DNA of 64,000 nt from Synechococcus sp. J7-Johnson (GTDB lineage: Bacteria; Cyanobacteriota; Cyanobacteriia; PCC-6307; Cyanobiaceae), in the NCBI RefSeq assembly GCF_024345795.1, contig NZ_JAGQBU010000002.1, forward strand, positions 124,001 to 188,000, in the 5' to 3' direction. The notes under the pieces are model-generated. The model worked only from the letters and a program-made list of their open reading frames with translations, was not told the DNA's origin and searched no databases. A program made the translations under genes and the position numbers. Positions 8,651-43,599 of this stretch are shown piece after piece. Each line of letters opens with the position of its first letter. Within the stretch, counting starts at the first letter, position 1.

Positions 8651-9478
8651 TCAGTCGTTCGGAGCCAATGATGGCGCAGCGCCATGGTGCCCCTGAGCCG
8701 TGGAGCTGAAGCAGCCCTGCAGCAGACGCAGGGCCTTCCCCCGGGAGCCGAGGTGCTCCTGGCACCACACCTGCACCAGTTCCAGCAGGCGCAGCCAGAC
8801 CCAGGCCGGTCCCATCAGGCTGGCGTCGCGGCAGCGGGGCAGACTGGGTCGTGGCAGCCGTTGCAGCAGGGCCAACTCAGAAGCGTTCAGCACCAGCATC
8901 GACCCGGCCACCGAGCCGATCGCCAGCCCCTCGCTGGGCAGCAGGCTGCAGCGCCAGTCGCGGTTGCCCAGGGGAGGGGCCAGGGGCTCACCGCTGCGGG
9001 CACAGCGCTGCAGCGGTAGCCCGTAGCCCCCCAGTGCCAGCAGGTGCACATGCCCTTGCACAGCGATCGCCAGCGCCTCAAGGCTGTCCTGATGCTCGCT
9101 CACCACCGATTCCAGTCGACGCAGCTGCAGGGTGAGGTCGTCGAGGGCTCCAGCCACCCCATCCCCCTCGGGCACCAGGCGCAGGCAGAGCTCCGCCAGC
9201 GACTGGGCGGCTGCGAGGGCTTCGAGGCGCTGGCCCAGCTGGCTGAAGCTGTGGATCACCCGAAGCTGGCGCACACGCCGCAGGCCACGGCCACCGCCGA
9301 CCTGGAGCCGCAACTGGGACAGGGGCACGGCCGCCGCCAGGCTGCTGCGGGGCCGCCGGGCGCCAGGCACCGCCAGGCGGCTGAGGCCACCTCCTTCGCT
9401 GAGCAGGGTGAGCAGCCGGTCGTGCTCCCCGAGGGGGCCACATTTCAGCGAGAGACCCTCCAGCGATTCCTCGGGCAT
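8651..9478 (-). CDS. recO: DNA repair protein RecO
   Basis: RecO helps load RecA on SSB-coated DNA in the RecF pathway. The 275-residue protein has the N-terminal OB-fold pattern with LKCGPLGEHDRLLTLLSEGGG and the central helical part. The zinc-finger region of many RecO proteins is reduced here: only Cys residues in LQRCARSGEP and DWRCSLLP are seen. Its ATG overlaps the deoC stop in an ATGA, so it is translationally coupled to deoC. Confidence 0.9.
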   Translation of the reverse strand: MPEESLEGLSLKCGPLGEHDRLLTLLSEGGGLSRLAVPGARRPRSSLAAAVPLSQLRLQVGGGRGLRRVRQLRVIHSFSQLGQRLEALAAAQSLAELCLRLVPEGDGVAGALDDLTLQLRRLESVVSEHQDSLEALAIAVQGHVHLLALGGYGLPLQRCARSGEPLAPPLGNRDWRCSLLPSEGLAIGSVAGSMLVLNASELALLQRLPRPSLPRCRDASLMGPAWVWLRLLELVQVWCQEHLGSRGKALRLLQGCFSSTAQGHHGAAPSLAPND

Positions 9479-10161
9479 CAGGCCGGGGCGCGCATGGCCT
9501 CGATCAGGGCCACGCCGCGGCTGGTGCCAAGGCGTGTGGCACCGGCGGCCACCAGATCGAAGGCCTGCTCCAGCTCGGCGATGCCACCGGAAGCCTGGAT
9601 TCCCGCCCGCCCCCGGGCCAGCTCGCGCAAGTGGGCCACCTGCTCTGGGGTCACGGGAGATCCGAAGCCACTGCCGGTCTTGAGGTAGGCGGCTCCGGCA
9701 TCGATCGAGGCCTCCACCAGCAGCTCCAGGGCGGCGGAATCCAGTCGTGCCACGTCCTGAATCACCTTGACCGGCAAGCCGAGTTCCACGATCGTCCCCA
9801 GCTCCTCATAAATCAAACTGCCATTCCCATCGGCAAGGGCGCCGAAATCGGGCACAACATCAAGCTCGTCAGCGCCAGCGCTGGCGGCGGCCTCCGCTTC
9901 TGCCAGCTTGATCAAGGCCGGCACCGCGCCGAAGGGGAAGGCCACCACGGCCACCAGCTTGACGCTGCCAGATCCGCCGAGCCGTTCGCGGGCGGCAGCC
10001 ACCCAGCGAGATGAAACGCAGACTGCCGCAAAGCCGTAGTGCCGCGCCTGGTCACAGGCCTGGTGCACATGCTCCAGGCCCCGGTGTGGATCCAGGAGAG
10101 CATGTTCAATGAGTGGGGCCAGATCGGGCAAGGGCCCCCTGAACCTTGAGTCACGCATCAC
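9478..10161 (-). CDS. deoC: Deoxyribose-phosphate aldolase
   Basis: Class I aldolase cleaving 2-deoxyribose 5-phosphate to glyceraldehyde 3-phosphate and acetaldehyde. The 227-residue protein has the Schiff-base lysine K161 (AYLKTGSGFG) and D101 (ELDVV, equivalent to E. coli D102). The second active-site lysine (E. coli K201, normally in KPAGG or KASGG) is replaced by Gln189 in IQASGGI. In E. coli this lysine tunes the pKa of the Schiff-base lysine, so activity may be low or altered. It is followed by recO with a 4-bp overlap. Confidence 0.88.
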   Translation of the reverse strand: MMRDSRFRGPLPDLAPLIEHALLDPHRGLEHVHQACDQARHYGFAAVCVSSRWVAAARERLGGSGSVKLVAVVAFPFGAVPALIKLAEAEAAASAGADELDVVPDFGALADGNGSLIYEELGTIVELGLPVKVIQDVARLDSAALELLVEASIDAGAAYLKTGSGFGSPVTPEQVAHLRELARGRAGIQASGGIAELEQAFDLVAAGATRLGTSRGVALIEAMRAPA

Positions 10162-10186
10162 AGGGGCCAGGGGGAGTCAGCATGGA

Positions 10187-10774
10187 TCAGGATTCCTTCG
10201 GCTGGATCACACCAAATCCACCATGGTTGCGGCGATAGACCACCTGGATACCACCGCTGGATTCCTCCCGGAACACATAAAAATCGTGGTCGATCAGCTC
10301 CAGCTGGTGCAGGGCCTGATCCAGGCTCATTGCAGGCATGGAAAAGTACTTGCGCCGCACGGCGGGAACAGGCAGGGTCGGCTCCCTGTCCCCGATCAGA
10401 TCATGGGGAAGAACTTCCTCCAGGCTGGGCGGTTCGGTATCGTCGCCCATGGCTCCAGATGATCCGGCGCCGTGATGATCACTGAGGCGATCCTTGTAAC
10501 GGCGGAGTTGGCGGCTCAGTTTGCTCGCCACCATGTCGATGCTGGCGTAGAGGTTCTCACTGCGTTCCTGGGCGCGGATCACTACCCCATTGGCATATAC
10601 CGTGACCTCAGCGGTCTGTTGGGCCACCCTGGGATTGCGCGCCACGGAGAGATGAACATCGGCTTCTTTGACCAGCCCTTCGTAGTGATTGATGGCCCGT
10701 CCAAGCTTCGCTTCCGTGTAATCGCGGATCGCCGGCGTGACATCGAGATTGCGGCCGTGAATCAACAGCTTCAT
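10187..10774 (-). CDS. hpf: Long-form ribosome hibernation promoting factor (LrtA type)
   Basis: Binds idle 70S ribosomes and promotes their dimerisation in the dark or under starvation. The 195-residue protein has an N-terminal S30AE/YfiA domain ([19 protein letters not shown] to about residue 100) and a C-terminal dimerisation domain ([30 protein letters not shown]). A variable linker separates them. I chose ATG 10774, which fits the family N-terminus and has a GAGG about 11 nt upstream. In other cyanobacteria this gene is lrtA, a light-repressed transcript. It is divergent from lipB with 53 bp between starts. Confidence 0.94.
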
Positions 10775-10827
10775 CGAGCAGTCCCCTCGCTGGTCGTTGT
10801 GGATCAACTGTAGGAAGCCATTCGCAC

Positions 10828-11505
10828 ATGACTTCGGCCCTCGACGCAATCCTTTTTGAACCACCCCTGCCCGTGCCTTTTGACCAGGCCTGGGCCTGGC
10901 AGCGGCAGCTGCAGGCGCGGCTGCTGCGCGACCCCGATGGCCCAGAAGCTCTGCTGCTGCTCCAGCACCCCCCCTGCTACACCCTTGGCCGCGGCGCCAG
11001 CGAGGGGTTCCTGCGCTTCGATCCCGCCGATCCTCCCGCCCCCCTCTTCCGCATTGACCGCGGTGGCGAGGTGACCCACCACCTCCCCGGCCAGCTGGTG
11101 GCTTATCCGGTGCTGGCGCTGCAGCGCCACGGTGGCGATCTCCACCTTTACCTGCGCGATCTGGAAGGAGCTGTGCTGGAGGTGCTGGCGGCCCTTGGAC
11201 TTCAAGGAGAGCGACAGAAGGGCCTGACCGGTGTCTGGCTGGAGGGGCGCAAGGTGGCGGCGATCGGCGTGAGTGCGCGCCGCTGGATCAGCCAGCACGG
11301 CCTTGCTCTCAACGTGACCTGCCCGCTGGAGGGGTTCAGCGCCATCGTCCCCTGCGGATTGAGGGGTCATGGGGTGACGCGACTGAGCGACTGGTGCCCA
11401 GGGATCACCACCGCGATGGTTCAGATCCTGTTGTGCCAGGCCCTGGCCCGGAGGTTCGGGTTGGGGCTCCGGCCACCGAAGCCCACGGAACTGCCCTGGC
11501 GGTGA
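10828..11505 (+). CDS. lipB: Octanoyltransferase LipB
   Basis: Transfers octanoyl groups from octanoyl-ACP to the lipoyl domains of E2 subunits and glycine cleavage H protein, the first step of lipoate assembly. The 225-residue protein has the [18 protein letters not shown] block, catalytic Lys142 ([10 protein letters not shown]) and the acyl-accepting Cys176 (IVPCG). The likely substrate, pyruvate dehydrogenase E2, is coded about 2.6 kb downstream on the same strand. An AMP-forming acyl synthetase starts 29 bp after the stop. Confidence 0.95.
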
Positions 11506-32037: not shown

Positions 32038-32649
32038 TCATCTCCCCACGATGCGGGAGGGTTCCCTGTAGACCGCCAGGGCGGCGAGCACTCCACCGGC
32101 GAAGCCGCTCAGGTGGCCGATCCAGCTCACCCCCGCCGGGGTGAAGAAGGGCAGCAGGCCTGGCAGGAAACCGCCGTAGCTCAGGAGGCTGAACAGCGAG
32201 AGCAGCAGGGGCAGGGGGCGTCGCTCCAGGAAGCCGATCACGATCAGGTAGCCCACCAACGCGAAGACAACGCCGGAGAGGCCATGGTTGCCGTTGCTGG
32301 AGAACAGCCACACCGGGACCGCCATCACGTACACCCCCACCCAGACCGCCAGGTAGTCGTGCCAGCTCTTGAGCAGCACCAGCCAGGAGAGGGGCAGGAA
32401 CCAGAGGCTGTTGCCCAGCAGGTGGCCAAGATCGCCGTGGCTGAACGGGGCGGTGAGCACCCCCAGGAACGAGCCTCCGGGCAGCATCGGCAGGTTCCAG
32501 CGCCCACCGAACACGATCTGATCGATCAGTTCCTGTCCCCAGGCCACTGAGAGGATCAGCAGGGGGATCATGGCGGTGCCGCCGAGCCGGCTCAGGAGGC
32601 GATCCAGGCCTTGGCGCGGGCGCTGGCGAATGGGTGTGGGGTTAGCCAT
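32038..32649 (-). CDS. Rhomboid family intramembrane serine protease
   Basis: A 203-residue protein with six predicted membrane helices. The catalytic dyad is Ser125 (HGLSGVVFALVG) and His179 (WIGHLSGFAGG), and the HxxxxHxxxN pattern H71/H76/N80 forms the oxyanion side, so it should be active. Substrates are unknown. I chose ATG 32649; a longer in-frame extension overlaps the divergent DUF427 gene and looks non-coding. Confidence 0.92.
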   Translation of the reverse strand: MANPTPIRQRPRQGLDRLLSRLGGTAMIPLLILSVAWGQELIDQIVFGGRWNLPMLPGGSFLGVLTAPFSHGDLGHLLGNSLWFLPLSWLVLLKSWHDYLAVWVGVYVMAVPVWLFSSNGNHGLSGVVFALVGYLIVIGFLERRPLPLLLSLFSLLSYGGFLPGLLPFFTPAGVSWIGHLSGFAGGVLAALAVYREPSRIVGR

Positions 32650-32679
32650 GCTGACCATTGTCATGGCCAGGGACGGCGA

Positions 32680-33177
32680 ATGGGGAGCAGCGAGCCGTTG
32701 GAGAGCCAAGAACGAGAGCGCGTCTGTGACTATCCGCGTCCACCGGCGCTGGAGCCCAGCGGGGCTTTGGTCGAGGTGCGGGCTCTGGGGAAGCTGCTGG
32801 CGCAAACCCGCCGCTCGCTGCGGGTGCTCGAGACCTTCCATCCCCCCACCTATTATCTGCCGCCAGAAGACGTTCACCTGGAGCTGCTGGCGCCCGCGGC
32901 AGGAAACAGCTTCTGTGAATGGAAAGGCCTGGCCCGCTACTACGACGTGGTGGTGGGTGAGCGCCGGCTGGAGCGGGCGGTGTGGTCGTATCCGCAGCCC
33001 ACAGCAGCTTTTGCGGCTCTCGCCGGTTGGTTCGCCCTTTACCCGGCCTTGATGGATGGCTGCTGGCTTGACGGTGAGGTGGTGATCCCCCAGCCCGGAG
33101 GGTTCTACGGGGGTTGGATCACATCCCATGTTGAGGGGCCGTTCAAGGGGGATCCGGCCCATCCCGAGCTGATCTGA
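32680..33177 (+). CDS. DUF427 family protein (long form)
   Basis: A 165-residue soluble protein with the DUF427 core: YYLPPEDVHLELL, FCEWKGLARYYDVVVG and AVWSYPQP. The C-terminal extension of about 50 residues (LMDGCWLDGEVVIPQPGGFY...) is more than the usual 90-residue core has. The family fold is a small beta-barrel; its function is unknown to me. A second, minimal DUF427 protein is coded at 36526. It starts 30 bp from the divergent rhomboid start. Confidence 0.82.
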   Translation: MGSSEPLESQERERVCDYPRPPALEPSGALVEVRALGKLLAQTRRSLRVLETFHPPTYYLPPEDVHLELLAPAAGNSFCEWKGLARYYDVVVGERRLERAVWSYPQPTAAFAALAGWFALYPALMDGCWLDGEVVIPQPGGFYGGWITSHVEGPFKGDPAHPELI

Positions 33178-35893: not shown

Positions 35894-36517
35894 GTGCCCA
35901 GCTTCGATCGCCGCGCCACCCTGCTGGCGTGTAATGCCGGCCACTGGGAGGGCAGCTTCATTCGCCTCGATAGCCAGGGCCTCGAGAGCGAGCGCTTCGG
36001 CACACGCCTGCATGTGCACGAGACAGGCGGCCAGATCGAAGCGGCCCTCACTTACTTGAACACCGGCAAGGTGGCGACGATGCGCTTCGCCGAGCCGCCG
36101 ACCTTGATGACTATCAGCCCCGATGGGCACTGGAGCCTCGGTCCCGACAAGACGGGTCCCTGGCCGGCGGTGATGGAGCTTTGCCTGGTGGATGGCCAGC
36201 GGCGGCGGCGACTGGTGGTGCGTCACGGCGCCGAGCGGCTCGAGAGCGTGGTGGTGGTGGTGGAGGCCCGCCCCGGGGTGGTGGATCCGGCTCCGGCGGC
36301 GCCCCTGCGGGCCACGGTTCTGCCGGGTGGCGATGGTTCAGGCCTCGGCTGCTGGCAGCTCACGGACGACATCAGCCTCACCACCGCCCTGGAGCGCCGC
36401 GGTGGAGACCCCCTGGCGGTGAGGCTGTGCTGGCGGCCCCAACCGGGGCGGGAGCTGGTGCTGGAGCGTGCCTATGGCGCCAACGGACTGCCCCAGCAGG
36501 AGCCGCTGCTGGTCTGA
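35894..36517 (+). CDS. DUF3598-like protein
   Basis: A 207-residue, beta-rich soluble protein opening with NAGHWEGSFIRLDSQGLES. This resembles the start of the cyanobacterial DUF3598 family, whose proteins have a lipocalin/CpcT-like barrel look. Function is unknown; ligand binding is a guess. The start is GTG 35894. It converges on a DUF427 gene with 8 bp between stops. Confidence 0.6.
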   Translation: MPSFDRRATLLACNAGHWEGSFIRLDSQGLESERFGTRLHVHETGGQIEAALTYLNTGKVATMRFAEPPTLMTISPDGHWSLGPDKTGPWPAVMELCLVDGQRRRRLVVRHGAERLESVVVVVEARPGVVDPAPAAPLRATVLPGGDGSGLGCWQLTDDISLTTALERRGGDPLAVRLCWRPQPGRELVLERAYGANGLPQQEPLLV

Positions 36518-36525
36518 GGGCAGAT

Positions 36526-36804
36526 TCAGCTCACGCGCACGCCCTTCCAGAAGGCCACCCGGCCCTTGATCTCACTGGCGGCCTGCTTGGGTTCGGGATA
36601 GAACCAGGCGGCGTTCGCGTTCACCTGATCCCCCACCACCACGTCGTAGTAGTGGGCTTCTCCCTTCCAGCCACACACGCTGCGGTGTGATGACGGCCGC
36701 AGGTGCTCGCCGACCAACGCCTCGGCGGGGAAGTAGGCGTTGCCTTCCAGTTTCACGATGTCGTCACTGCTGGCGATTACGGCGTCGTTCCAGCGGGCTT
36801 CCAT
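36526..36804 (-). CDS. DUF427 family protein (minimal form)
   Basis: A 92-residue protein covering just the DUF427 core: MEARWNDAVIASSDDIVKLE, NAYFPAEAL, VCGWKGEAHYYDVVVGDQ and AAWFYPEPK. It shares the W-K-G-x-x-x-Y-Y-D-V-V-V-G signature with the longer paralogue at 32680. I chose ATG 36804 by family length; ATG 36828 is possible. It is 71 bp downstream of the ATP-grasp ligase on the same strand. Confidence 0.82.
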   Translation of the reverse strand: MEARWNDAVIASSDDIVKLEGNAYFPAEALVGEHLRPSSHRSVCGWKGEAHYYDVVVGDQVNANAAWFYPEPKQAASEIKGRVAFWKGVRVS

Positions 36805-36875
36805 GGCAGTGCAGCAAACGTCTTTCATCCTGGAGCCCACGGGAGCCCGTTGTGGTGGTCAGCCGGCGGATCTGC

Positions 36876-38399
36876 TCAGGCCTGCTTCAGCTCCTCGGCC
36901 CCCGCGATCAGTCGCTCCCTGGTGGCCGCGTAGATGAGTTCAGCTTCTTCAGGACTGCGGCCGATGCAGGTCATCCCCAGCTTGCCGAATTCCGAGAGGC
37001 AGCCAAGCAGGTGGAACACGCTGCCGTGCAGTGCGGCTGGGTCGAAGTGCAGACCGGCGGCGGCCACGATGTCGATCAGGTCCACCGGCAGCAGACCCCG
37101 CAGCCTCGGGTCGCAGAGGTTATCCGTGGCGGCATAGAACAGCGACTGGCCGGTGGGGGAGCGGAACAGGCCGCTGGCGCCATCGATGCGGCCGTTGGTG
37201 GCATAGCGCAGGGCCATGTAGGGGTGGGTGGTGCCGCCCTTGCGCAGGTTCACCTCGATCGCCTGCAGATCCCAGTGCTCCCCGAAGCGGCGCGCCACGA
37301 AATCCACCGCATAGCGCTCCAGGGCGCCCTCTGCCGCCAGGGCCTGGCCCACCGCCAGCCCGTGACGCATCAGTTCGGCCCGGTACTGCGTCTGGGCGGG
37401 AAAGCGGCAACCCAGGTAGGTCTGTCCGCTCACGCCGCCGAGCACCTGCTCATGGGTGGAGAGCACCTCCACCGCCCCGCCCGGGTGGATCATCCCCTGC
37501 ACGCTCGGTGAGGCCAGCTCGTCGCCCCCCAGCAGCCAGGCCTCCACCAGGGCACCCTGCTCCTGCAGCAACTGGCGCCACTGGGGTGGTGGCATCGCCA
37601 GGGTCTCGAGGGCCTCGCGCAGGCGAACTCGGCGCTCCCGGCCGCTGAGCTCCGCCAGTTGCAGGGGCTCCAGCTCCAGGGGAGCATTGCCTTCGCCGCT
37701 GAATCCCTGGTCCAGCTTCACCACCACCCGGCTCAGCTCGGGGTGGGCTTCCCACAGCTCGGCCGTCACTTCGCCGAGGGCGTCGAGGTCATGGACCAGG
37801 GAGCTGCCGGGCGGATGGGGCACAGCGCAGCGGCGGAACAGCTCGCGGCTGCCGGCCTTGCCGCCCCAGTGACTCAGGGCTGGATCAGTGCCCAGCAGCG
37901 GCACCTGCAGTCGCTCGGAGAGTTGCTTCTCCTGCTCCGTCACGTTGAAGCAGGTCATGAAGCTGCGCCCGGGACGCAGGCGCTCGCGGATGCGCCCCAG
38001 CAGCGCCGGCCGCTCCAGCAGCTTCTCGGTGAGGGGCCGATTGGAGGCGTCGTCCGTGTCGAACAGATGCAGGCGCCGGCGGGCGTGGGAGGCGGGCACC
38101 CCCGGCAGCAGCTCCAGCACGGCATCCACGACCAGTTCAGGCAGCAGCTTGCTGGTGATGTAAACCGCCCGCACGCCGGGGTCGCGCAGGCGGATCAGCG
38201 AGAACAGCTGCCGTTCCTCGTAGTGGTGGGCCCCGGTCACCAGAGCCATTTGATGGTGATCGAGGCTGAGCGAGGGCACCACCAGCAGATCCCAGCCCTC
38301 ATTGCCGCCTTCACCGCCACTGTTCTGGTTGCTGCCTGGATGGAACTCGCCCCATTCCGGCCGCAACTGTCGCTGGAGTTCGCTGAAACGCAGAGCCAT
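36876..38399 (-). CDS. ATP-grasp ligase related to peptide ligase PGM1
   Basis: A 507-residue protein. The N-terminal 170 residues are a Rossmann-like region (VYITSKLLPELVVDAVLEL, FNVTEQEKQLSERL). The middle is an ATP-grasp fold with the ATP-binding VVVKLDQGFSGEGN loop and the metal-binding DLQAIEVNLRKGGTTHPY (Glu/Asn) motif. The C-terminal 100 residues resemble the PGM1 C-terminal domain of the pheganomycin peptide ligase family. Such enzymes join an amino acid or guanidino acid to a peptide amine. The product here is unknown. No NRPS or RiPP precursor is adjacent; mscS lies just upstream. Confidence 0.78.
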   Translation of the reverse strand: MALRFSELQRQLRPEWGEFHPGSNQNSGGEGGNEGWDLLVVPSLSLDHHQMALVTGAHHYEERQLFSLIRLRDPGVRAVYITSKLLPELVVDAVLELLPGVPASHARRRLHLFDTDDASNRPLTEKLLERPALLGRIRERLRPGRSFMTCFNVTEQEKQLSERLQVPLLGTDPALSHWGGKAGSRELFRRCAVPHPPGSSLVHDLDALGEVTAELWEAHPELSRVVVKLDQGFSGEGNAPLELEPLQLAELSGRERRVRLREALETLAMPPPQWRQLLQEQGALVEAWLLGGDELASPSVQGMIHPGGAVEVLSTHEQVLGGVSGQTYLGCRFPAQTQYRAELMRHGLAVGQALAAEGALERYAVDFVARRFGEHWDLQAIEVNLRKGGTTHPYMALRYATNGRIDGASGLFRSPTGQSLFYAATDNLCDPRLRGLLPVDLIDIVAAAGLHFDPAALHGSVFHLLGCLSEFGKLGMTCIGRSPEEAELIYAATRERLIAGAEELKQA

Positions 38400-38406
38400 C
38401 GTGAGA

Positions 38407-39441
38407 TCAGCCCCTGATCAGGCTGCGCGTGGGGAAGGGCATTCCCGCTTGATGCTTCTCCACCACTTCACCGATGCGCAACAACAGCTCCTGCTGCAGA
38501 TCCCAGGCGGCCTGGATGTCGCCACTGGCCACATAGCAGAGCAGACGCAGATTGAGGCTCGATTCGCCATAACCCACGAAGTGCACCGCCGCTGACTTGT
38601 CGTGATCGATACTCGTGTTCGAATCCAGCTGCTCACGCAGCTCGGAGATGATGGGCTCGATCGCGGCACGGTCGTCGTAGCGCAGCCCGAAGTCGATCCA
38701 GACCCGCCGGCTGTCGATCCGGGCGACGTTGATGATCGGCTTCACGGTGAAGATCGAATTGGGGATGAAGATCGGCTGCCGCTCCGGATCACGCAACTCC
38801 GTGTAGAACCAGCTGATTGTTTGCACGGTGCCGTTGACATCTTCTGCGGGGATTCTGATGAGATCCCCCACCACGAAGGGTCTGTTGATGTAGAGGCTGA
38901 TGCCGCTCAATCCATTTTCCACGATCGTGCGGGCGCCGAAGCCCAGGGCCGCGGCACCGAAGCCACCGGCGGTGGCCAGCAGGGCGGTGGGGGTGCCCAG
39001 CAGCCGCAGCAGCTCCAGGCTGATGATCACAACCACCAGCACCGTGAGCAGCTTGTCGCTGAGATCGAAGAGGTACAGGCGCTCACGCTGGGAAAGATTC
39101 GGGAACACCTGCTGGGAGTAGGTGTCGGCCTTGCGCCAGATCTCGCCCTTCCAGCGCAGCAGCGTCCAGATCAGGCCGATGAAGATCAGCTCATTGCGCA
39201 CGTCCATGCTGCCCATGGGCAGGGGCAGCAGCTCGGGTCCCAGCAAGGACAGCAGCCACCAGGCGGTGGAACTGACCAGGATCGTGAGCGTGAGGCTGAG
39301 GCGGCTGCGCAGCACCAGGGCGCGGCCCAGCGATCCACTGGGAAGCCGTTTGCCAACCAGTTGCAGGCTCAGCCAGGCTCCTGCCGCCAGCAGGATCCCC
39401 AGCAGGGGAATAGGCAGGCTCAGCTGGAGGGGATTGAGCAT
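38407..39441 (-). CDS. MscS family mechanosensitive channel
   Basis: A 344-residue protein with about four N-terminal helices, the Ala/Gly-rich pore helix (TAGGFGAAALGFGARTIVENGL) and the soluble beta domain (PFVVGDLIRI, GTVQTISWFYTELRD, IFIPNSIF). It releases solutes during osmotic downshock or acts as a small-conductance channel. It ends 7 bp before the ATP-grasp ligase start, so the two are almost surely cotranscribed. Confidence 0.9.
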   Translation of the reverse strand: MLNPLQLSLPIPLLGILLAAGAWLSLQLVGKRLPSGSLGRALVLRSRLSLTLTILVSSTAWWLLSLLGPELLPLPMGSMDVRNELIFIGLIWTLLRWKGEIWRKADTYSQQVFPNLSQRERLYLFDLSDKLLTVLVVVIISLELLRLLGTPTALLATAGGFGAAALGFGARTIVENGLSGISLYINRPFVVGDLIRIPAEDVNGTVQTISWFYTELRDPERQPIFIPNSIFTVKPIINVARIDSRRVWIDFGLRYDDRAAIEPIISELREQLDSNTSIDHDKSAAVHFVGYGESSLNLRLLCYVASGDIQAAWDLQQELLLRIGEVVEKHQAGMPFPTRSLIRG

Positions 39442-39473
39442 GGCTGGACTCTAAGGACGGTCGTCCAACGCCC

Positions 39474-40568
39474 TCAGCCGTCGGGTCCGTTCAGCTCCCA
39501 GATCAGATCGGCTCCCGAGCGGCTCAGCCCCATCTCTTGCCAGGAGGGCGCCATAGCCATCGAGTTCAGTTGCAGATCCCCCAGCGGTGTGCGGGCGGCG
39601 ATGCCCCCCAGCAGCTTCGGGGCCACCACCGCCACCAGCCGCTGCACACAACCCTGGCGCAGCGCCGCCGCCGCCAGCTCTGGCCCGCACTCCCACAGCA
39701 CCTGGTTGCAGCCCCTCCGGGCCAGGGCCTGCATCAGCTCCAGCGGTTCGCAGCAGGCCAGCTCCAGCCGCTCCACCCCCAGCCCATCCAGCCGCTGTCG
39801 TGCTGCCTCGGGGGCCTCGGGCCCATGGGCCACCAGGGTGGGAGCCGCACGCTGGTCCCAGAGCTGGGCTCGCTCCGGCACGTTCAGGCCGCGGCTGATC
39901 ACCACCCGCAGCGGCTCAAGCGCACGCCGTCCCCGGCTGGTGAGCAGGGGATCATCCGAGCGCAGGGTGCCGCCACCCACGATCACCGCATCGCAGTGCG
40001 CTCGCAGCTCGTGCACCCTCTGCCGCGATGCTGGCCCGCTGATCCACTGGCTGGCTCCGTTGGACAGGGCCGTGCGTCCGTCCACGCTCATCGCCCACTT
40101 GAGGACCCCCAGGGGCCGGCCGGTGCGCAGCCGGTGGCAGAAGGCGGCATTCAGGTTCTGGGCCTCGGCCTGGCGCACCCCCACCAGCACTTCCGTCCCG
40201 GCCAGGCGCAATGCCTTGATGCCTTCGCCCGCCACCCGCGGATCGGGGTCCTCCATCGCCACGATCACCCGCCGGATCCCGGCGGTGATCACGGCCTCGC
40301 TGCAGGGGGGCGTGCGGCCGTGGTGACAGCAGGGCTCCAGGGTCACCACCAGAGTGCCCCCTCGGGCCCGATCTCCCGCCTGAGCCAGGGCTCCCACCTC
40401 GGCGTGGGTCATTCCGGCAGCGGCGTGGAAGCCTTCCCCCACCAGCAGCCCGCGGGCATCGAGCACCAGTGCGCCCACCAGGGGGTTGGGGCTGGTGCGA
40501 CCCCGCGCCAGGGCGGCCAGGCCGAGGGCGCGGTCCATCCAGGTGCTCCACGGGCACCCCTTGGTCAC
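39474..40568 (-). CDS. ribD: Bifunctional riboflavin deaminase/reductase RibD
   Basis: Carries out the second and third steps of riboflavin synthesis from GTP. The N-terminal deaminase has the zinc motifs HAEV and PCCHHGRTPPC; the C-terminal reductase has the WAMSVDGRTA, GGGTLRSDDP and WECGPELAAA blocks. I chose GTG 40568, whose GTGA overlaps the DUF3122 stop; this gives 364 residues. GTG 40595 and ATG 40538 are alternatives. ribF, the next pathway gene in this window, is at 49996. Confidence 0.93.
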   Translation of the reverse strand: MTKGCPWSTWMDRALGLAALARGRTSPNPLVGALVLDARGLLVGEGFHAAAGMTHAEVGALAQAGDRARGGTLVVTLEPCCHHGRTPPCSEAVITAGIRRVIVAMEDPDPRVAGEGIKALRLAGTEVLVGVRQAEAQNLNAAFCHRLRTGRPLGVLKWAMSVDGRTALSNGASQWISGPASRQRVHELRAHCDAVIVGGGTLRSDDPLLTSRGRRALEPLRVVISRGLNVPERAQLWDQRAAPTLVAHGPEAPEAARQRLDGLGVERLELACCEPLELMQALARRGCNQVLWECGPELAAAALRQGCVQRLVAVVAPKLLGGIAARTPLGDLQLNSMAMAPSWQEMGLSRSGADLIWELNGPDG

Positions 40569-41071
40569 GCCGGAGTGCTCACCAGGCTGCGCCACTCGGC
40601 CACCACGAATGGAGGCACCGGCAGCTCCGTGAACACCCCCGGCAGCCGCAGCCGCAGCGGACGGTTCTGGCTCAGTTCGGCCAACAAAGGGCTCAGATCG
40701 AATTCAGCGGCGGCGGAGCGGCCGTCGTTACTCAACGCCTGGCTCTCGAGGGTCAGATCCTCCAGCTGCCACTGGAACGGGCCCGAGCGCACCTGCAGCG
40801 CCGTGGGGTGATCAAGCCGCACCTTGCCGGGGTAGCCCACCACCCGCAGGTGCAGGGCAGCTCCGGGCGGTCCGTCGCGAAAGGCCACCAGCTGCCATGC
40901 CTGATCATCCAGATCGCGCACGCTCACCAGGCTGCGCAGTACCGGGCTGCCGGTTTCGCTGGGGTGTGCGTGCAGCTGGGCCGCCGCTGGCGTCACCAGA
41001 GCAAACAGGCAGGCCAGCAACAGGCTCAGGGCCAGCAGCAGCCGACCCGCTCGGCGGATCATCCCGCTCAT
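40565..41071 (-). CDS. DUF3122 family exported protein
   Basis: A 168-residue protein with a clear signal peptide (residues 1-31: RRAGRLLLALSLLLACLFALV, then TPAAA|QLHAHP). The mature part is beta-rich. The family is cyanobacterial and its function is unknown. Its ATG overlaps the stop of the GH116 gene in an ATGA, and its stop overlaps the ribD start, so it sits in a tightly coupled operon. Confidence 0.75.
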   Translation of the reverse strand: MSGMIRRAGRLLLALSLLLACLFALVTPAAAQLHAHPSETGSPVLRSLVSVRDLDDQAWQLVAFRDGPPGAALHLRVVGYPGKVRLDHPTALQVRSGPFQWQLEDLTLESQALSNDGRSAAAEFDLSPLLAELSQNRPLRLRLPGVFTELPVPPFVVAEWRSLVSTPA

Positions 41072-43599
41072 GGTTCGCGCTCGGCTCCAGGGATCGGCTG
41101 CCACTGGGTGTGGGTGGCCCAGAGCGCCCAGATCGCCATCGCCCGCAGGTAGTGGCAGGCCCGGAACGTGCCCACCGCCGTGATCGCCTCGGGCGTGCGG
41201 AACTGCAACCCTCCCGCATACACCTGGCCCACCACGGCGCCGCTGATCGCCATGGCCGTGTCGGTCTGACCCATCAGGCGGTAATAGGCCGCCAGACCGA
41301 AATTGATGCCGGTCCATATCTCCAGCGGGTGGGTGCCGTTGGGATCGAGCGGCGTGCCGTCGCGGCGCAGGCCGTTGGCCACCCCCAGCCGCCCCCCCTC
41401 GAAGCGCTCGAAGCAGGCCTCACGAATCGCCGTCAAGGCCGAGAGGGCCCGCTCATCGCTCACCACCGGCGGCAGCCCCAGCAGGCGGGCGTAGAAATCG
41501 CCGCAGAGCTGGTCGGCCATCACCACCGGTGTACCGCTGCCGGCATCGATCCGGTAGTACTCCCCGTTCCAGAGCAGCCGATCGAAGTTGGCCCGTGACG
41601 GCTCCAGCCAGCTGCCAAATTCCCGCTGCTCGGCGCCGGTGTCGAGGCCAAGGTCGAGCTGCAGCCGCTGGGCCATCGCCAGGGCCGCCTCCAGGGCTGC
41701 TATCCAGAGGGCGCCGCAGTAGGCGCTCACTCCCTGCAGTGGCCAGTCGTCAAAGGTCTGATCGGGAGCGCCGCCGTTGTCGGGCAGGCCGTCGTCGTTG
41801 ATGTCGAACTGCTTGAGATAGCGAAGCGACTCCACCACCGCCGGCCAGCAGTCGGCCAGGAAGCGCAGGTCTTCCCCCGATGGGGAAAGCCGGAACAGCC
41901 GCCATACCTGCAGCACGAAGTCGGAGGCCAGGTCCTTCCAGAGGTTGCAGTCTTGATAGGCGGTGTAGTTGGTGGCATCGAAGGGCCGCTCGTTGGGGGC
42001 GCCCAGGTCGTGGGGGGTGGCGCCGGGCAGCTTGCGGGCCGCTTCCACCCGGCCCCGCCCCTGGGTGAAATACCAGCCGATCGGCCGGGGGGTGGCATCG
42101 GCGGCGGGAATGGCCCGCGCGAAGCTTCTAAGCACCGCCTTGTCGAGTTCGGGCCAGAGCTGCAGCAGGGCGAAGGAGCCGTAGAGCCGCACATCCAGGC
42201 TTTCGTACCAGGCGTAGTCGAGGCACTCCAGCACCCCGAAACGGCCCACCGGATCCGTGGAGCTTGCGGCGGTCCAGAGGCTGCCGCCGCTGGCGAGGTC
42301 GTAGAGCTCATTGAGCAGGGCCATGCGCAGGGGCTCAGGCAGGTCGCTGCGTTCCAGCACCGGCTTCTGCCAGGCCTCGATGGCGTCGCGCCACTGACGC
42401 CACGCGCCCAGGGCCTCGGCGGCGATGGCGGTGGCGCTGGTGCCGGTGGCCCCGAAAAAATCCGTGTAGCGGCGCAGGGCGGACGTGCCCGTGGCGAAGG
42501 CGGTCACGGGCAGATCCCAGCTGATCACCACCGGCAGCTCGATTTCAGCCCCCGGCTCCAACCTCAGCCGCAGGGCGATCGCGGCGCTGGCCTGCTCGCT
42601 GCCGGTGCTGCGGCGGTCGTTGTTGCTGTTGGGGATCGAGCCGTCGCGGGAAAACGCCTCCCAGATCTCGCCGCCATCTCCGCTGGGATCCCAGCGGCTG
42701 CAGCGCATCACCTCCACCCCCTCCAGCTGGTCGGGGACCGCCAGGCACCACTGGCCCTCCCCCTCGGCGATCGGCTGGCTCGGCGCCCCCTCCAGCAGCA
42801 CGCCCGTCAGGCCCGGTGTGTCGATCCAGCGGTTGCGCTGGCCCACCCCCGCTCCGATGGCGGGCAGGTAGTTGTGCTCCGGGCTGCCGTCGTCGCGGAA
42901 CGTGACGGCGGCGCTGGGATCGGTGTTGGTGAACCAGCCCACGGTGTTGCGCCAGCTCAGCAGCAACGAGAGATCCAGGGGGACCTTGGTGGGGTTGGCC
43001 AGCCGCCAGCGGAACACCGCCACCGGATAGCTGGTGCGCTGATAGTCGCCGGGGATGATCGGGCTGAAGGCCTCGCAGCTGGCCTCGGCGCGGAAGTCGG
43101 ACTGGTAATCAAGCCAGTGCAGCGGATAGCGGGCGGCGTAGGTGCCGGCCGTGGCGCTGGTTTCGTTGCCGTCGCTGGTCTCGCTTCCCAGCCACTGCCA
43201 GCGGCCCAGGGGACGCTCGCTGGCCTCCGGCCGGGAGTCGTCGTGGTCAGGGGTCATGGCCAGGGCCCGGGCCCGGCTCGCTGTGCCGTCGTGCTCGAAC
43301 AGGGCGAACTGGCAGTCGGGCAGCACCCCGAACCAGTGCTCACCCCCATCGAGGTGCCAGAGGTTGAAGTTGCCGTCAGGTCCGCGGCCGATGCAGCCCG
43401 CACCGAAGCCCCCGAGTGGGGCGCCGTGGTTGGGACCGTCGTCGAGGTTGCTGGCGTAGCGCACCTTGTAGGGGGCCTCCCAGCCCTGGCCGATCGGCCG
43501 TTGCCAGCTGGCAGGGGGGGCCTGGGCGGGCCGACCGGCGCCGGGCCCGCGCAACAGCGTGGAGAGGGCTGACAGGCCGAACGGAGCCATGGTGCTCAT
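41068..43599 (-). CDS. GH116 family glycoside hydrolase (GBA2-like beta-glucosidase)
   Basis: An 843-residue enzyme related to bile-acid beta-glucosidase GBA2. The N-terminal beta-sandwich starts GAPLGGFGAGCIGRGPDGNF. The (alpha/alpha)6 barrel carries the nucleophile Glu near residue 458 (ECLDYAWYESLDV) and the acid/base Asp near 611 (GAPDQTFDDWPLQG). Related enzymes cleave glucosyl-lipids or short beta-glucosides. No signal peptide is seen, so it is cytosolic. Likely substrates include glucosylglycerol-like solutes or glucolipids, which is inference. It overlaps DUF3122 by 4 bp. Confidence 0.9.
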   Translation of the reverse strand: MSTMAPFGLSALSTLLRGPGAGRPAQAPPASWQRPIGQGWEAPYKVRYASNLDDGPNHGAPLGGFGAGCIGRGPDGNFNLWHLDGGEHWFGVLPDCQFALFEHDGTASRARALAMTPDHDDSRPEASERPLGRWQWLGSETSDGNETSATAGTYAARYPLHWLDYQSDFRAEASCEAFSPIIPGDYQRTSYPVAVFRWRLANPTKVPLDLSLLLSWRNTVGWFTNTDPSAAVTFRDDGSPEHNYLPAIGAGVGQRNRWIDTPGLTGVLLEGAPSQPIAEGEGQWCLAVPDQLEGVEVMRCSRWDPSGDGGEIWEAFSRDGSIPNSNNDRRSTGSEQASAAIALRLRLEPGAEIELPVVISWDLPVTAFATGTSALRRYTDFFGATGTSATAIAAEALGAWRQWRDAIEAWQKPVLERSDLPEPLRMALLNELYDLASGGSLWTAASSTDPVGRFGVLECLDYAWYESLDVRLYGSFALLQLWPELDKAVLRSFARAIPAADATPRPIGWYFTQGRGRVEAARKLPGATPHDLGAPNERPFDATNYTAYQDCNLWKDLASDFVLQVWRLFRLSPSGEDLRFLADCWPAVVESLRYLKQFDINDDGLPDNGGAPDQTFDDWPLQGVSAYCGALWIAALEAALAMAQRLQLDLGLDTGAEQREFGSWLEPSRANFDRLLWNGEYYRIDAGSGTPVVMADQLCGDFYARLLGLPPVVSDERALSALTAIREACFERFEGGRLGVANGLRRDGTPLDPNGTHPLEIWTGINFGLAAYYRLMGQTDTAMAISGAVVGQVYAGGLQFRTPEAITAVGTFRACHYLRAMAIWALWATHTQWQPIPGAEREP

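Follow-up and report, generated by a model that had tools for sequence, protein, structure and literature searches.

The window, a 64,000-nucleotide stretch of DNA from Synechococcus sp. J7-Johnson, carries on its minus strand a run of genes in which a predicted ATP-grasp ligase follows ribD and a mechanosensitive channel gene (mscS) and precedes a small DUF427 gene. The features are listed below, with the source of each assignment in parentheses.

39474..40595, minus strand: ribD, riboflavin deaminase/reductase, 32 bp upstream of mscS (domain matches)
38407..39441, minus strand: mscS, MscS-type mechanosensitive channel, 344 amino acids (Pfam)
38400..38406, minus strand: 7-bp gap from the mscS stop to the ligase start (sequence)
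36876..38399, minus strand: ligase gene, 507 amino acids, PGM1/BesA-type ATP-grasp carboxylate-amine ligase (ORF, Pfam, PDB search, AlphaFold model)
37221..37256, minus strand: E382-x-N384-x-R386 motif followed by GGTTHP, ligase residues 382–393 (alignment)
36927..37082, minus strand: PGM1_C domain of the ligase, residues 440–491 (Pfam)
36526..36840, minus strand: DUF427 gene, 104 amino acids, 35 bp downstream of the ligase, gap 36841–36875 (Pfam)

The coordinates and the 7-bp gap given in the original prediction are exact, and open reading frames and Pfam matches verify its ATP-grasp/PGM1_C, MscS and DUF427 genes. Absent from it was ribD, which is a steadier partner of mscS than the ligase is. 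The channel gene matches the beta domain (PF00924), the C-terminal domain (PF21082) and the TM2/3 helices (PF21088) of the MscS family, all above their Pfam cut-offs. By ligase identity the nearest named relatives are Synechococcus sp. 1G10 and Cruz-7E5 (97%) and WH 5701 (92%). The locus is not a product of chance, since relatives of the ligase are found in 89 of 292 genomes of the phylum (protein search, E ≤ 0.001) and dN/dS against eight hand-picked relatives is 0.10–0.28, values that show the coding sequence to be under purifying selection. No defence gene model matched the ligase, mscS or DUF427 genes, and there was no match to phage records. A search of positions 36300–41400 for promoter and terminator consensus sequences found none, which carries little weight because 0.2 and 1.1 were expected. 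The window contains two DUF427 genes, at 32611–33177 and 36526–36840, on opposite strands and about 4 kb apart; a relative of the former lies directly after mscS, on the other strand, in seven of ten fetched mscS loci that lack an adjacent ligase.

Family and fold of the ligase

The ligase matches the ATP-grasp_IQCH family (PF24923) at 58.4 bits, against a cut-off of 27, and this match is followed by a PGM1_C domain (56.4 bits; cut-off 22.5). A search of PDB sequences retrieves BesA (8yi6), the L-propargylglycine–L-glutamate ligase of Streptantibioticus/Streptomyces cattleya, with a phmmer E value of 2e-40 and a profile E value of 2.5e-57, and no other chain at E ≤ 0.01; two further phmmer rows (E 0.055 and 0.55) are at chance level. 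The AlphaFold model, made from 40 sequences, has a pLDDT of 89.2 and a pTM of 0.90, with residues 21–32 poorly modelled. It superposes on BesA with a Z score of 38.5 (rmsd 2.7 over 443 residues, 30% identity), on 3wvq with 29.4 (rmsd 3.0, 408 residues), on the Streptomyces ATP-grasp peptide ligase 8ynd with 27.4 (rmsd 3.2, 388 residues) and on 8ynq with 25.8, after which carboxylases and PurK follow at Z ≤ 21.7.

In an alignment of 38 rows, comprising 33 hand-picked cyanobacterial sequences and five from outside the cyanobacteria, K181, K228, E286, D366, E382, N384, R386 and H392 are invariant. The two lysines, the E-x-N motif and the aspartate have known roles with ATP and Mg in ATP-grasp enzymes, in which the glutamate and asparagine bind metal. 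The PGM1_C domain placed after the ATP-grasp core, the modelled fold and the conserved ATP/Mg residues confirm a PGM1/BesA-type ligase at the level of family and predicted fold, such that the PGM1-like ATP-grasp identity first proposed is borne out by Pfam, by the PDB sequence search, by the fold search and by residue conservation. The rival class named at that time was a cyanophycin-like ligase. Cyanophycin synthetase-like enzymes combine ATP-grasp and Mur-ligase domains; no Mur-ligase or cyanophycin model of Pfam or NCBIfam matched at E ≤ 0.001, which lends this class no support.

BesA shares the fold of the ligase over its whole length, together with the ATP-grasp residues. It differs, however, at 55 of the 115 positions that are invariant in the 33 cyanobacterial rows, so the BesA substrate cannot be transferred to the ligase. 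In the S. cattleyicolor BesA row, whose letters equal those of 8yi6 wherever both are displayed, VGPSHV stands in place of the GGTTHP segment. A score of 142.1 bits against the NCBIfam BesA model (NF042917; cut-off 750) agrees with a differing substrate. On these comparisons, the ligase probably shares its chemistry with BesA and probably acts on something else. The entries 3wvq and 3wvr, titled "ATP grasp protein," we take to be PGM1 of the pheganomycin pathway. PGM1 has the PGM1_C domain and the 3wvq fold in common with the ligase, but 3wvq gave no sequence match at E ≤ 0.01, and 50 distant ligase loci are without recurrent biosynthetic neighbours. PGM1 couples a small core peptide to a nonproteinogenic guanidino acid (PMC8939145). 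The kind of enzyme is already known. Passages of PMC4431377, PMC11867202 and PMC13185094 treat other ATP-grasp ligases; in the open literature searched we found no paper on cyanobacterial members of this ligase.

The match of the ATP-grasp half to a family named for IQCH leaves room for a protein substrate. Proteins might be modified by the ligase with an amino acid or short peptide, a role perhaps shared by eukaryotic IQCH-type ATP-grasp domains, and it is consistent with such a role that the S. cattleyicolor BesA row reaches 26.6 bits against PF24923, just below the cut-off that the ligase clears, and that no small-molecule gene cluster was found near the ligase in 50 distant cyanobacterial loci. 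Among 14 control genomes, PF24923 is matched in Synechococcus elongatus only. Against a protein-modifying role, the closest experimental structure belongs to a small-molecule ligase and aligns over 443 residues, and there is no candidate protein substrate. We consider such a role unlikely, and prefer an enzyme that joins small molecules.

Neighbours of the ligase and of the channel

Of the loci with at least 1.2 kb of upstream sequence, 66 named and 59 from whole genomes, the tblastn neighbour tables place mscS next to the ligase in 10 and 7, respectively. Five whole-genome loci among these 17 (L204, L205, L207, L208 and L210) are apparently repeats of named ones, which leaves twelve pair loci besides the window. 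The gap between mscS and ligase is 3–19 bp across all 17, and among the loci seen the pair is limited to three related genera. Within the family of the source strain, 30 of 121 genomes have mscS, 41 have the ligase and 21 have both, with the two side by side in eight, a count made by hand from fully listed genomes. Four of the 21 (G310, G342, G347 and G387) have an mscS match of only 30–32% identity and may carry paralogues, and some non-adjacent pairs are split between contigs of draft genomes.

Within the lineage the order ribD-mscS-ligase recurs, with GH116 upstream wherever the contig extends far enough. Elsewhere in the family, mscS adjoins ribD in nine of ten fetched loci without an adjacent ligase (L203, L211, L212 and L214–L219, with L213 the exception), the ten being drawn from the 22 genomes with a non-adjacent mscS, mainly those whose mscS is nearer. 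Two genomes separate the genes from either side: in G351 the ligase follows ribD and there is no match to mscS at E ≤ 1e-20 (locus L202, apparently the same as L035), and G356 has mscS and falls outside the 41 genomes with the ligase. These genomes, together with the family-wide ranges, make the adjacency narrow and dispensable from both sides. In G356 (locus L203), a 769-residue glycosyltransferase family 2 protein at 8822–11131, with a weak cellulose-synthase match and a borderline PilZ match, occupies the place that the ligase has in close relatives.

The ranges of the ligase and of the ribD-mscS pair suggest the direction of change: the ligase probably inserted later, beside an older ribD-mscS pair. 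With gaps of 3–19 bp, co-transcription of mscS and ligase within the lineage is likely, which does not show shared function. Between the ligase and the DUF427 gene, the distance in close relatives ranges between tens of bp and about 1.7 kb, and DUF427 is therefore probably outside the unit.

The original prediction had coupled ligase and channel, with the ligase producing a small peptide or amide solute for the channel to release; such release would follow osmotic downshift. The short gap kept in each of the 17 pair loci, across three genera and in 8 of 21 family genomes, speaks for such a coupling, as do proposals that cyanobacterial mechanosensitive channels release glutamate (PMC10897207) or compatible solutes (PMC9948718). 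The adjacency is nevertheless not conserved beyond one lineage in either the named or the whole-genome loci; the pair is missing from most ligase loci examined, mscS stays with ribD elsewhere in the family, and G351 and G356 each keep one gene of the pair. Moreover, the gene at 38407–39441 is one of eight MscS-domain places in the source genome, and MscS channels are unselective. Synteny speaks against a functional ligase-mscS unit, on account of the narrow adjacency and of ribD as the steady neighbour of mscS, and we regard release of the product through this channel as highly unlikely. A tempting lead is thereby corrected, in that the adjacent channel is not the steady partner of the ligase.

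The search for other partners compared frames of at least 80 amino acids (blastp E ≤ 1e-15) up to 7–8 kb on each side, as far as the contigs reached, a scale at which small peptides would be missed. Across the 50 distant cyanobacterial loci, no neighbour family occurs in more than five, and those that recur do so at varied distances and on varied strands. Six of the 50 share a frame that runs antisense to the ligase. Cyanobium-type genomes have other genes syntenic with the ligase, in about ten loci; among these genes are frames that, to judge from their sequences, presumably encode folD, an HD-domain protein and leuA, and we take the arrangement as background synteny. Upstream of the ligase, an NtcA-type pattern is present in 2 of 48 regions, against 1.7 expected, and in one together with a −10 box, against 0.2; two other patterns were absent from the 48 regions, and no 6-, 8- or 10-mer there exceeded the largest shuffle value. 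Wide as its distribution in cyanobacteria is, the ligase is an orphan, with no partner genes found among the 50 distant loci.

Distribution and inheritance

The PGM1_C model matches 128 of 194 genomes of the class, which represent 81 of 110 genera; 122 of the 128 have a single match and the remaining six have two. The other 66 genomes gave no match to the model, and the ligase is therefore not essential to the class. Many of the listed family genomes without the ligase are small (1.3–1.9 Mb), and some are larger. Among the 14 control genomes, PGM1_C and the ligase are again confined to Synechococcus elongatus.

A quick tree was built from 75 rows, with the picocyanobacterial named loci thinned to 18 and five incomplete or split rows left out (L055, L096, L103, L104 and L155). 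One branch, with support 100, separates the picocyanobacterial rows from the rest, and the 70 cyanobacterial rows group together against those of Gemmatirosa, Nonomuraea, BesA, Streptomyces and Robbsia, with support 83 on a branch that is not starred; the non-cyanobacterial rows sit on long branches. Families f7, f13, f14, f15, f18, f19, f20 and f23 cluster, whereas f2, f6 and f11 are scattered. The clustering by family and the grouping of the cyanobacterial rows suggest that inheritance has been mainly vertical.

Relatives also occur outside the cyanobacteria, including on six plasmid records of other phyla. Plasmid 1 of Gemmatirosa kalamazoonensis encodes one of 46% identity (L159, 8001–9467) that keeps GGTTHP, which suggests that the cyanobacterial type exists in Gemmatimonadota. 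A distant relative of 27% identity on plasmid p3 of Robbsia andropogonis (L158), already annotated as "peptide ligase PGM1-related protein," is flanked by SDR, aldehyde dehydrogenase, amidinotransferase and SIS-domain genes, so some relatives may belong to biosynthetic clusters. That the cyanobacterial ligase itself serves, like PGM1, in a specialised pathway to an antibiotic-like peptide with a ribosomal core is very improbable: the PGM1_C domain and the plasmid-borne relatives, one of them beside the amidinotransferase, aldehyde dehydrogenase and SDR genes, fit it, but the 50 distant loci have no common biosynthetic neighbours among frames of at least 80 amino acids, and the wide, mainly single-copy distribution with clustering by family is unlike that of a specialised cluster.

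A record titled Bifidobacterium breve (L043) carries a cyanobacterial ligase of 76% identity to that of the window and is probably a mislabelled bin. Split or second, broken copies of the ligase are present in three genomes (G342:C1:501128-502172, G068:C1:4174063-4175464 and G348:C1:1123587-1125079); one of these genomes has a second copy bearing a stop, and the other two have copies split in two frames.

Proposed reaction and role

In the reading that we prefer and hold to be reasonably probable, the gene encodes a working ATP-grasp ligase that forms a small amide or dipeptide, is inherited mainly vertically, normally in single copy and without a linked cluster, and has neighbours that are local to its lineage. 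Other ATP-grasp ligases convert a carboxylate and ATP to an acyl phosphate that is attacked by an amine, as described in PMC11867202. By analogy, we infer acyl-phosphate chemistry and an amino acid substrate for the ligase. With ATP and Mg2+ it would probably convert a small carboxylic acid, for which an amino acid is the likely choice, to the acyl phosphate, and transfer of the acyl group to an amine would yield the small amide or dipeptide. The enzyme would act without a linked gene cluster and would normally be single-copy and mainly vertically inherited. In the source lineage it would lie just downstream of the more widely kept ribD-mscS pair, probably on the same transcript.

Purifying selection and a mostly single-copy state in 81 of the 110 sampled genera argue for a general role of the ligase. 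The undescribed small-molecule pathway envisaged in the original prediction is possible on the sequence evidence. More tentatively, and with rather less confidence than doubt, we suggest that a small amide or dipeptide, never yet identified, is made in about two thirds of cyanobacteria by a near-core ligase, and that Prochlorococcus-type and other lineages lacking the ligase do without the compound. The product, if identified, would be an addition to known cyanobacterial metabolism, and the ligase itself is open to direct study in Synechococcus elongatus, which carries it.
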